From: Tubiluchus corallicola
Lineage: Eukaryota > Priapulida > Priapulimorpha > Priapulimorphida > Tubiluchidae
NCBI GenBank assembly: GCA_030141605.1
Contig: JAQGDQ010000185.1
Location: 1-64,000 of the forward strand
Direction: 5' to 3'
DNA length: 64,000 bases
Shown piece by piece: positions 10,852 through 34,320 of this stretch. How positions within the stretch are numbered: the stretch's first letter is position 1; each line of letters begins with the position of its first letter. The notes below the pieces were generated by a model. The model saw nothing but the letters and a program-made list of their open reading frames with translations, did not search any database and had not been told where the DNA came from. The translations under genes were made by a program, and so were the position numbers.

Positions 10852-12329
10852 TCAAGAGCCCTCTTCAGCATAGAGGCGCTTGTAATTTATGACCATTATT
10901 GGTATTACGCCAAACAGTGCCATCAGTATGAACAGGAAGCTTAGAGCGCATAGACCTAATAGATCGTTGTTGTTAGAGTTCAGCGATCTGCTGCAGGATC
11001 TTGAAGGAAATATCAGCACTGGTATCGTATAGAAAAAAGACTGCACCAGTCAAGGATGCGAAGTCGACTGTTCTTCGTAGACACCTTGCGATTTGAAAAC
11101 GTAGGTTTCAAACGTGAGATACAAAAGACAGCGTTATGCCTGTTAAGCCAAATGCCTTTGTATCAGATTTTATCGAAGTTTCTGGATACGTCAAATTTAT
11201 ACCCTCACCAAGAGCTATTTCAATAACAATAAACTGATAAATTTACTAGTGTTTAATACAAAACTGTTTATGAAATATAAATGGGAATCTGATGAAAAAA
11301 GAAATTGGAAACTATGAAAGATAAGTCTGTCAAAATTATAAAAAACTTACCAAGTGCTCTCTCGGAATCGGAATCGGAATCGGTATCTGGTTGAGGAGTT
11401 GAGTCAGGTTTTCGAATTGTAACCGCGACGAAAAACAACACATTCAGCATTAACAAGATTCCTCCAACTATCGGTATGAAAACAGAAAATTTCTGCCCAA
11501 AGAACACAGAGCTGAAACAAACCAGCACTAAAATGAATAGCCACGCAATGTGATGTCATCAGTATCAACAATCAGAGACCCTATAATATTTTGATGATAT
11601 AATGTTGATTATAATGAAAGTCTATATAACTGAATTAAGACTTGAAATACAAAAAAATTTTAGTTTTCAAGTTTCAAGTTTATTTTTATTTATTACAACT
11701 GAATGAAGGACTGAATAATCTAGTGATGAATTCGGCGTGCATTTCACAGGTTTTGAGATTGCAGGTTTTCATTTTTTACTTATTTTACGTTATCTGTTTT
11801 GGAGCCGAATCACCCCAGAGTTTACTAAAGCGCATTCGTGATTTGCAAAAATGCTAGTATTGCTATGATTTTCGAAAGTTTTGTTTGTATCAACAATTTT
11901 TTGTTGATGGGCAGCGGGTGCATACCGCTACATTTTCGTGTCTAAGCAAGTACTGTGACCAATCAGCTATTTCTCTCGCCCTTAAGAGTTCGATAAGTAA
12001 AATCTACTGTAAGCATTATGTAAATTATGTAATAGTTATAATTGCAAAAATCCTAGTACTGTGCAAAGTACATTATGTAAGAAACTCATATAGTTCATAG
12101 TTCCGCTTACTCTGCATACAAAAACGAAGCCATAATAAGCCAAAGAATCCAAGTGTGAAGATTTCCCTCTGTCAATCTCGGCCTGTGAAGAGACTGTCTC
12201 GCAGGCATTTGGGATTGTCTTGACAACGCTGAGTTGTTCTTCTCGTTGCAAGCTACACTGGTTGATGATGGTGATGATGCTCTTCTATACGAGCTTACTG
12301 CACTCAGAATTGACGATGGTATTGTTGGA
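10852..12329 (-). CDS. Multi-pass membrane protein, three 3' exons (5' end not found)
   Basis: Minus-strand exons: 12329-12111, 11511-11351 and 11018-10852 (TGA at 10854-10852). Splice sites are good. The first intron runs from GTAAGC to a TTTGTTTCAG acceptor, the second from GTAAGT to a pyrimidine-rich CAG acceptor. Exon lengths 219, 161 and 167 keep one open frame through both junctions (phases 2 and 1) to a natural stop. The product is about 180 residues as seen, or 141 from an ATG at 12208-12206. The N-terminal part is Ser-rich and basic. Hydrophobic segments follow: WILWLIMASFLY, FIPIVGGILLMLNVLFFVAV and LCALSFLFILMALFGVIPIM. Between the second and third lies an acidic DTDSDSDSE stretch made by a GGAATC hexanucleotide repeat. 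The C-terminus NYKRLYAEEGS is probably cytosolic. I do not recognise the family; a claudin/MARVEL-like small membrane protein is only a guess from layout. A further upstream exon is likely, because 12329 follows a TTTTTAG acceptor. Confidence 0.65.
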
Positions 12330-12622
12330 CTAAAAAGTTTACATTAATGATAATCATTTAATGATGAATTTTATAGCTAATGCTGAGTGTAACCTTTACC
12401 ATTTGTTGGGGGGGGGGGCGATGCAAAAAACAACGAGTAGTATTAAATAGTAACGTATTGCTCTCAGGCATTGCTGAATCAATAGAGAATCTATTACACC
12501 CGTGTCTTAAAAATCACTATGCACTTTGAATATTAATATTCTTTTTAAATGTTTCTCCGATCTTAGCAACTTCTTACGTGAATCAATCGGGGCCTTTGGC
12601 AATTCTTTTTACTATTTGTTGA

Positions 12623-18620: not shown

Positions 18621-18950
<330 letters not shown>

Positions 18951-20305: not shown

Positions 20306-20310
20306 TACGT

Positions 20311-20406
20311 CATCATCATCATCATCATTATCATCATCATCATCGTCGTCGTCGTCGTCGAAGTCATCATCATCATCATCATCAACAACAACAACATCAT
20401 CGTCAT
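20311..20406 (+). repeat. (ATC)n / (GTC)n / (AAC)n compound microsatellite
   Basis: Imperfect CAT units, then five GTC units, then CAT again and a short CAA run. Acidic frames on the minus strand are translated repeat. Confidence 0.9.
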
Positions 20407-21239
20407 CAAGTTTTATATCCAAGTAAAACAATCAGAAACTGTAAACGGGGAGTGTAGATAATCCAGTTATTGAGAGACCAGTTTTCGCAATGCTGGTAAT
20501 GTGGTTCTACCAGCTAAGTAAAGAAGTAATTTGGAATTGTTTAGCTCAGAGATTTTTAGGAATTTTATGAGATTGTCATTGTATATCGTTTTTAAGTATT
20601 TCTAAAAAGCAGTCAAACATTTGCGAAAAATCGTGAATTTCCAATAATCATAAATTTTTTTTATTAAACGAAAGCAAAAACTGTAACTGGTGAGTACAAC
20701 AAATTTGGGAAACCAATATTTCGCAGACAATATGGAGTTTGACAGTTAAGTGATGTGCAGCTGTTTGAGAATTTTCAGATATTCGTCAGGTATTTTCAGA
20801 AATATTATTAGGTGGTCCATTAGAAAAAATTAAAATGTTAAAACACGCAAAACGTCAAGTCAGCTTTACCTGAGTATTCATTGTTGGCGTGGTTTAGGTA
20901 AATGCTAATGCCTGTGTATTTAAGGACCCTGGGGCTTTTTTCTGCATGACTAGGTAATCATGCCGGACATTCTGGTATTTATTTTAACAAGGCAATTATT
21001 ACCGCTTTGTGTTGACGTGTTAATTTTCCGTCCAATTAGCTGCGTTACCTGCTAAATTGAAATAAATTGTTGCAGAATTAACAAGCGGAAAAGTGTCAGA
21101 CGTTTTAGAAATGTTATTTGAAGGTCGCAAATTAAGTTGCTGCTGCAAACGTTGACACAAATTTATTTAATCATTAACAAAAAATAATAAATAAGCAATA
21201 ACAAAATTAACACAATAGCTGCAGCATTAACAGGAGATA

Positions 21240-22744: not shown

Positions 22745-22967
22745 TTAGGTAAGTGAGTAAGTAAATAAAATTTATTTAACTTTGCTTATAACATAGAAAA
22801 TGTACCTTTAAAGTTAATATTACGGCCAATACATTAAGATAAAATCAATAAATAAAGTGCACTTACACAATTATTATATATATAGCTTTAATATTAGCTT
22901 CAAAGGTAGTATTTTCCATGTTATAAACACCGTTAAATAAATTTTATTTACTTACTCACTTACCTAA
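22745..22967. mobile_element. MITE with long terminal inverted repeats
   Basis: A 36-base perfect inverted repeat forms the ends (22745-22780 and 22932-22967; outer bases TTAGGTAAGTGAGTAAGTAA). A second, slightly diverged arm lies inside (GCTTATAACATAGAAAATG against GTTTATAACATGGAAAATAC), giving about 65 bases of near-perfect pairing around an AT-rich centre. If the ends are at GGTAAGTGAG, the flanks are TA on both sides, as in Tc1/mariner-type insertions. No coding capacity. Confidence 0.8.
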
Positions 22968-31534: not shown

Positions 31535-34320
31535 GGACGCGAATTCCTCCAAAAAGCTCGTTACAATAAAAACGTACCTATGCACGTATTGTCTGGTAGT
31601 TAAACGTTAAATAAGGTGGAACAACTCTCAAACTATCTAAACTCTCCGCAAAAATAGCTTTTACAATTTGCAAGCACAATCAAACGGTTTCAGGACTTTC
31701 AAAATGGCTTCAAATGCTGCTGGTAATATTAATACCTGGTAACTTACTGGTAATATTAATACCGAAAGTGCACATCACAGTAATGACAGGATTTCTGACG
31801 TTGTTCCTTTGTGCACGTATTGGTAGGTGGTAATGAACCCCAAATTCCCAATGGCTTCATGCTACTCTCATACCATTCCATTTTTACATGTCACTCTGAT
31901 TTTTACTTATTTTTTTACAGATTTTTAACTTTCTATTATAGTTGCCCAGAGCACAAGGCTAATTGGTAAAAGAAATGTTATCATAGAATTTAGTTAATAG
32001 ATCAAAGCGAACAATGATTTTTTGTTCTATTGAAACTTTGAAGACATCGGATTAATATTTGCAAGGTTTCCCGACTTTATTATCTTATCCGTATTTAATA
32101 AGCTACTTGATCATATTGCAAATTCTTTTTATTATTTTTTTGTCGAAAGTTGTGCATTTAGACATTCTTTCACATAAGCTTTATTTTTTCTTTAATTAAA
32201 GTGTTAGTCAGTTATAAAATCCATTAACGAAGTCATCAAGGCTTTTTATATGTTTTGTAAATTAATGCTCAGTATTAAGCTTTTGATAACAAAATTATTA
32301 CAGTTTAATAAGCAGAACAAGAAATTTTGTGTCATTATGTTTTTCATTGATCTTCCGATTGGTACAACGTATATGGCCTAAAACCTACTTCATATTTAAG
32401 CGCCTAAATTTCTGAACCAGCTTAAGGGCTCGGCGTTTCAACGCCTGGCTGGAAACAGGCATGTTGGTTTTGGATCGAGTTGTAATTCTCGTGAAGTTCT
32501 GGCGTTCGGTGCCTGAACCTTTCCACGGCGATGCATTTATACAAGCTTAAAACATTTATAAACGCTATAAACGCTATATAAATTAATATTGCGAGTAATA
32601 AAGGTACAGAAAGATGCAATTACCTGGGAGATATTTTAGCGATATTAACTTCTCTTAAACGTGGTTATTCTACTTCATATTTAACTCACAAATAGATGAG
32701 CGATAACTGTATACTTTGCGCGGATATATAGAATTGATGTACACGTAAATTTTTATAACTTTTAATAATGCTCTGATTTATAAAGCAAAAGGTTACTTGA
32801 TAGTTTACGTGCAAATGGCTGTTCAAATGATCGCTTAAGTGTCATTCTCGTTGTCACGATGATCAACGGCAGTTCTAATCGCGTTGCACATAATCTATCG
32901 ATGGAACTCGATGAAAGCCGAAATTGCCCGCAGAATGACATTGAAACCCAGATTTTTTCAAAATTGGTAGCATTTAAATTCCGCAAAACCAAATTTTGAA
33001 ATGACATCTATAGAATAAACAGGCGCGTGAATATAACATCATTCGTTCGTTATCCATTTGCCTGCTTATTCGTCAAGCGATGACGTCACGCTTATTTGTA
33101 GTGACCGCGCATATTCCCAGTGATCTTTGGCCAAATATTAAACCCTGATTTTTGAACAAAGTTTCAAGTTTCAACTTTATTCTAGACTCAATATGCACTG
33201 TGAAATGAATTTCTACAGAGCATTGAAGTGTCGGCGCTTTTTTCAGCTTCACAGAACGCTTACCTATCATTTTCAGCAGGAAAAACAACAATAAACGTAG
33301 CTCTAGATGGTAAGCCAAGGTTTGAATTGCCAAAGGTGTTTTAGCTACATTTGCTGCATTAGCACTTACATACACTCCTTCAAAGAATTAATTAAAGAGG
33401 GCAATTTATCAAATGAAGTTCTCTAGAAGCTCTTCTGGGAGCGATAACTCAGCTATTTTTCACGAGGTATGGCGTAGTTTAATTTAGGTTAATCTTTGGC
33501 TCATTTAAGGTTTGGCTAAACACACCTTGTCCACTCAGCTATTCCCTACACCTATGGTGCTTTACATTTCACACATATGCTACTTTGCACTCTGTTTAGA
33601 CAATTTTATGAAACCACTTAGCTAAATGGCTTCAAACTCTTAATCTCAAAAGTTAAATCAGTTAAATACCACGTCTTAAGACCACGTAATTAAGATTATC
33701 TGATAATACAAGAACAGTCGTTGCAAACATGCTAGATGATTTCGGGTATGGAACCATTTGTTTGGAGCTTACATAAATGTCGCTTTACGACATTTTTATC
33801 CGCGAGCAGTGCATTTCACTATTATGATAGCCAGCGAGTTTAGTCGTCAATGTCGTCCACGTTTAATTCGTGTTAACTGGCAAACGCAGAGTACTAGGTC
33901 AAAAATCTTGTAGGGATGGCACGTGGTATGTGAACAGTGACCCACACTAAAGAGTCAAAGACATGGGACATCAGTCATTTCGAGTCATAACATTGACTAA
34001 CTGGAAAACTATAGTACGCAGTGTCGAGAAACTTGCGAGGTAAATACCTGGGGTAGAGCCTCAAACAATGGTATGGTTAAAAACTATGATTGCTTTACGG
34101 CCCGAGATTGGAGCCAAAATACGAAAATTGGGGAAAAACTGGTCTGTTACACATGAGTAAACAGCTATGGCTAGGCGTATTCAAGTAATAATTAGTCCAA
34201 CGCACACTGTCACACATGTGCGGTAAAATCCTTGACATGAGTTTTTGAGAGTTTTGACATGAGTAAAACACATATGACCAGGCATAGTCAAGTCATAAGC
34301 GCGGTCCTGCATCTAAATTC
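31535..34320. other. Non-coding stretch with short repeats
   Basis: TGGTAATATTAATACC occurs twice at 31719-31763. A minus-strand LINE-like tail, AATAAAGTTGAAACTTGAAA, lies near 33160-33185. A diverged pair ACATGAGTAAA...CTAGGCGTATTCAAGT and ACATGAGTAAA...CAGGCATAGTCAAGT lies about 107 bases apart (34151 and 34258). No gene seen. Confidence 0.4.

Follow-up and report, generated by a model that had tools for sequence, protein, structure and literature searches.

A putative divergent ZDHHC9-type gene in Tubiluchus corallicola with no DHHC domain found at its locus

ZDHHC palmitoyltransferases possess four or more transmembrane segments, and in these enzymes the DPG motif is placed after TM2 and the NxTTxE motif after TM4. 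The text of PMC3813974 that bears on family membership calls the DHHC cysteine-rich domain (CRD) the sole domain conserved across all DHHCs; it describes the DPG and NxTTxE motifs as usually conserved and notes that some accepted members deviate from DPG. The locus analyzed here shares with the ZDHHC9/14/18 type a TM2 exon that aligns without gaps, including the IP pair, the P of DPG and the P of the PR pair that follows, and it shares the position and phase of the exon 1 end (compared in the genes on contigs C1867 and C1279). In contrast to that type, no DHHC cysteine-rich domain was found, the aligned DPG box reads KPD (DPG in C1867, C1279 and human ZDHHC9), the PR pair reads PQ, the TM1 region is six residues shorter in the alignment, and there is an acidic Asp/Ser tail. 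An early stop would be a further difference if the proposed exon 3 is correct. With the ZDHHC5/8 type, to which C1985 and C2236 were assigned by eye against a ZDHHC5 row, the locus shares the superfamily and the arrangement of TM2 then DPG, whereas those genes have their own DPG and DHHC-domain exons.

The window, the whole stretch of DNA that was analyzed, comprises bases 1-64000 of contig C1168 (425,636 bp) in a genome of 343.5 Mb and 2344 contigs. Its GC content is approximately 35%. Four stop-to-stop ORFs of at least 150 codons were present, three of which consist mostly of one trinucleotide repeat. The Rfam search of the window gave nothing reaching threshold, and no tRNA was found in it. 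Apart from the locus itself, a DNA-level search returned a single match, of 39 bases, to intron 1. Several other features were recorded in this region. TCA trinucleotide arrays lie at 18621-18927 and 20310-20408, and the first array generates artificial long ORFs; a sub-threshold acidic Pfam match (CDC45) falls in the TCA-array region. An inverted repeat at 22745-22967, with 57-nt arms that are 93% complementary and a 109-nt spacer, looks like a small terminal-inverted-repeat element. Elsewhere on C1168, the minus strand of 114289-116076 (L008:289-2076) holds a 596-codon ORF matching glycosyl hydrolase family 8 (E 7e-11). This family is mainly bacterial, and horizontal transfer is a possible origin of the ORF. 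A neurotransmitter-gated ion channel exon covering the transmembrane region was seen at L007:6267-6689 (E 2.5e-21).

The sequence-only reading had proposed a small spliced membrane-protein gene made of three minus-strand exons with matching phases and two GT-AG introns. All of these elements were present on re-reading, and each exon uses a different frame from the other two, as had been claimed (Table 1). The three hydrophobic segments and the acidic stretch of the model were also present; by hydropathy two segments are strong, one of them in the provisional exon 3, and the first is weak. The joined exons form one open frame of 181 residues that ends in TGA. The first in-frame ATG is at 12208 (12208-12206) and would give a product of 141 residues, and the ATGs downstream of the TATAAA element (12375) are at 12357, 12344 and 12208. 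Since the exon 1 frame is open upstream of ATG 12208 as far as 12343, translation might also begin in an earlier exon. With TATAAA at 12375 and the first in-frame ATG at 12208, 12329 need not be an exon start. A start site approximately 30 nt downstream of TATAAA would make exon 1 the first exon.

Table 1. Predicted features of the locus, in window coordinates.
Feature	Position	Strand	Basis
TATAAA, possible core promoter element	12370..12375	-	motif scan; promoter role inferred
Exon 1, 219 nt, first (weak) hydrophobic segment	12329-12111	-	joined translation
Intron 1, phase 2, GTAAGC...TTGTTTCAG, 599 bp	12110-11512	-	joined translation; comparison with C1867 and C1279
Exon 2, 161 nt, second hydrophobic segment, KPD, acidic Asp/Ser run	11511-11351	-	homology to ZDHHC9-type exon 2
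Intron 2 (proposed), phase 1, 332 bp, acceptor provisional	11350-11019	-	donor phase as in C1867 and C1279
Proposed exon 3, 167 nt, third hydrophobic segment, TGA	11018-10852	-	joined translation
Alternative exon 3, other frame, stop-terminated, without strong hydrophobic segment	10973-11040	-	rival acceptor; end hand-counted

The splice sites were ranked among the 3504 GTs and 3329 AGs of the strand by a generic metazoan matrix. The donors at 12110 and 11350 ranked 150th and 33rd, respectively, and the acceptor at 11511 ranked 96th. The acceptor at 11018 was weak (873rd), and the AG before 12329 was weaker still (1092nd). A rival acceptor before 11040 ranked 407th. The best 19-residue hydropathy values were 1.6, 2.6 and 2.8 for the first, second and third segments; among the 632 ORFs of at least 40 aa in the window, a fraction of 0.27 reached 1.6 and 0.047 reached 2.5. 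We also searched for comparable chains of exons, with thresholds that were chosen after the chain was known, and the counts are descriptive only. At the observed thresholds, one chain was found in the window (both strands searched), no chain in 30 Markov-1 sequences, and one in both strands of 274 kb of contig C1168 (approximately 5 kb of it N). When the site scores were relaxed and the minimum lengths kept, the 274 kb contained 4 distinct exon-2 candidates on the plus strand and 201 on the minus strand, and among these the window chain alone had strong hydrophobic segments in exons 2 and 3. Relaxing the lengths as well (exons of at least 100 nt) raised the candidates to 82 and 369, respectively. 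Under the most relaxed settings, a single other locus, 31694-31822 on the plus strand, and a variant of the present exon 2 at 11492-11351 also passed the hydrophobic test.

The homology of the locus was traced through exon 2. A tblastn search of the genome gave 10 matches: three fell on the locus itself, four on near-identical loci, and the remaining three were weak (E 0.25 to 7.5). The four near-identical loci (L027, L028, L029 and L030, on four contigs) matched window exon 2 at E 0.0038 to 0.0195. They are 93 to 99.9% identical to each other across most of 3.2 kb and were therefore counted as one; they appear to be copies of a divergent ZDHHC9-type gene region that either duplicated recently or stand for haplotypes left uncollapsed. 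Their exon reads VYFAREFSVVIPVIGAILFLLTACCFFLTACRDPGVVPR in three of the four, and the fourth differs by one residue. The reported stretches of these loci contain 5 or 6 stops because they extend back into the intron. The gene on C1867 has a PGRN motif in exon 1, an exon 2 of 161 nt, a cysteine pattern in exon 3 and DHHC in exon 4, with possible further exons after it, and its joined exons 1-4 matched human ZDHHC9 (8hf3) at E 2e-61. Beside the catalytic cysteine of this gene, at approximately 11856-12020 of C1867 (L034), HYTG follows DHHC, vs PWVG in ZDHHC9. Among the remaining matches, L031 and L032 were considered as relatives and rejected, for they faded on closer comparison; L033 gave E 0.001 when the target was limited to seven loci (25% identity, residues 88-151) but E 7.5 genome-wide. 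No further convincing relative of the locus was found in 274 kb of the contig (next best E 0.40).

We compared window exon 2 with its counterparts in C1867 and in C1279, which carries a canonical ZDHHC9/14-like gene. All three are TM2 exons of 161 nt that are entered in phase 2 and left in phase 1, window exon 2 matched both genes significantly, and the position and phase of intron 1 are common to all three. The peptide aligned with C1867 over its full length, with no gap and 16 of 53 residues identical ( E 5.8e-8 in a search against 8 kb of window, without composition correction). The ungapped score was 75, and block shuffles averaged -21, none of 20000 reaching 75. For C1279, with 11 of 53 residues identical, the score of 53 was likewise reached by none of 20000 shuffles, and for human ZDHHC9, with 8 of 53 identical, by 4 of 20000. 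Identity by codon position was 29, 30 and 17 of 53 against C1867 and 21, 31 and 13 of 53 against C1279, and the figures for C1867 suggest protein-level constraint in exon 2. Both exon 2 and intron 1 thus have good support as predictions.

Exon 1 was recognized in combination with exon 2. A profile of exons 1 and 2, built from C1867, C1279 and human ZDHHC9, scored the joined window peptide at 28.5 bits vs 21.1 bits for exon 2 alone, and none of 2000 shuffles reached 28.5. The aligned region includes the final 8 residues of exon 1 and so spans the splice junction, which lends support to the junction in addition to the exon. MAFFT placed MPARQ...RLTEG of exon 1 opposite FPGRN...GRLM of the ZDHHC9-type exon 1. 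Exon 1 alone was not significant, either pairwise (994 of 2000 shuffles reached the score) or by profile (534 of the 1636 scoring shuffles out of 2000 made), and when its final 14 residues were aligned from the donor, 744 of 20000 shuffles reached the score. The statement that the family was unrecognised is hence superseded: exon 2, and exon 1 through the joint profile, come from a ZDHHC9/14/18-type palmitoyltransferase gene. For the joined product, Pfam and the PDB gave nothing above threshold, the PDB search yielding two sub-threshold matches (E 0.41 and 0.46).

The proposed exon 3 has the correct starting phase and a strong hydrophobic segment. Neither the genome search nor the ZDHHC exon comparisons gave it a significant relative; its score against C1867 exon 4 was reached by 524 of 2000 shuffles and that against the TM4 exon by 1394 of 2000. 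Intron 2 showed no trace of ZDHHC exon 3 or exon 4 by DNA alignment, with 194 and 180 of 300 shuffles reaching the scores. In our judgement, exon 3 is probably real, with considerable room for doubt. The claim of a spliced membrane-protein gene is supported, since intron 1 and the exon 2 donor agree in position and phase with two related genes of the same genome. For exon 3, and hence for a small protein complete with all three segments, the claim is plausible but not proven: exon 3 is without a significant relative, and its weak acceptor has a rival.

The codon signal at the locus is weak. A codon model trained on nine long ORFs of the contig (4708 codons) separated coding from non-coding sequence only moderately: in bits per codon, leave-one-out coding blocks scored 0.096 (sd 0.128) and non-coding ORFs scored -0.137 (sd 0.111). 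Compared with 1717 non-coding ORFs, exons 1, 2 and 3 and the join fell at the 95th, 99th, 64th and 94th percentiles, respectively. A reverse-strand frame outscored the exon 1 frame (9.7 vs 4.3 bits) and, over exon 2, was equal to the exon frame (7.1 vs 7.0 bits). The synonymous-only codon score was approximately zero. A custom gene finder based on the codon model returned no positive model at the locus, and its best model there (-0.8) used the exon 2 donor and a different last exon.

The catalytic part of a ZDHHC enzyme was looked for at several levels. A genome search with PF01529 (E 0.1 or better, 49 candidates scored) gave 31 DHHC matches, none of them on C1168. A three-frame Pfam scan covering 1-40 kb of the minus strand of the window detected no DHHC, and its weak matches (CDC45, DUF4834 and Flavi_M) were under the curated cut-offs. 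NxTTxE is absent from the translation of the joined product. The locus product cannot be filed as a palmitoyltransferase by activity, since these searches did not find the domain that defines the family. A search of the literature for ZDHHC proteins without the DHHC domain found nothing on point, which is no proof of absence.

Given these results, we hold with little more than even confidence that the locus is a divergent ZDHHC9/14/18-type paralogue which kept its first two exons and lost the DHHC cysteine-rich exons. The kept part would be the N-terminal region, TM1 and TM2. Exons 3 and 4 of C1867 are 153 and 138 nt, and both are phase 1-1, so that loss of the two would preserve the frame. 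In the remaining message, exon 2 would be joined to a short terminal exon that adds a further hydrophobic segment. Its product would be a small membrane protein derived from the N-terminal hairpin, with no acyl transfer by the known DHHC mechanism. If it has a role, this would most likely be to partner ZDHHC9-like enzymes or their accessory subunit without catalysis, or to act as a decoy for them. That it is a conserved, expressed, non-catalytic TM1-TM2 hairpin protein tuning real ZDHHC enzymes, for example by competing for their accessory subunit or by pairing with active enzymes, is possible but doubtful.

The main rival, which we consider unlikely, is that the locus is a decaying duplicate, a 5' half that was copied from a ZDHHC9-type gene or remained after the rest had gone and that is becoming a pseudogene, the splice sites and frames being leftovers. 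The lost DPG box, the want of a catalytic exon on the contig, the unmatched exon 3 and the weak codon signal are all consistent with decay. However, exon 2 is still 161 nt, open and frame-intact despite an identity of 16/53 to C1867, and the third-position identity is far under that of the first and second positions; the constraint so indicated applies to the time since the split from C1867 and not to present-day action. A full-length ZDHHC gene cut by the contig end, with the catalytic exons beyond position 1 and exon 3 a chance ORF, is improbable. Downstream of exon 3 there is just 10.9 kb of contig, so that catalytic exons off the contig are conceivable, and exon 3 is provisional. In C1867, however, exon 3 comes approximately 1.5 kb after exon 2, and the DPG has already gone from window exon 2. 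C2236 and C1897 were considered as carriers of the missing domain and rejected: C2236, with its DHHC exon 3.8 kb from a contig start, has its own DPG and CRD exons, and C1897 has its own preceding CRD exon.

Two further explanations set the ZDHHC relationship aside. GT and AG occur frequently, two frames of approximately 80 codons are open in exon 1, and the codon signal is weak, as would be seen if the model were non-coding sequence with compatible splice sites and hydrophobic frames that arose by chance; the homology of exon 2, whose length and phases recur unchanged in two further genes, makes this very improbable. The idea that can be credited least is a hairpin protein like DPM2, the dolichol-phosphate-mannose regulatory subunit (PF07297). 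DPM2 was the best Pfam match of the joined product (E 0.08 to 0.03, positions 22-72 of 75), it has two close transmembrane segments as the locus product would have, and it appeared in none of 10 shuffles. Nevertheless, the locus product scored 13.7 to 14.9 bits vs a gathering score of 27.3, and 4 of 10 shuffles of exons 1 and 2 matched other families at E 0.03 to 0.16, which makes the DPM2 E-values unremarkable here. Moreover, the ZDHHC match adds exon anatomy. With the alternative ending, Pfam also gave DUF6264 (E 0.26).

The locus illustrates that descent which direct Pfam and PDB searches miss can be recovered from exon length and phase. Should the gene prove to be expressed and conserved, it would represent a relative of palmitoyltransferases that lacks the catalytic domain, and a testable candidate for a built-in regulator.
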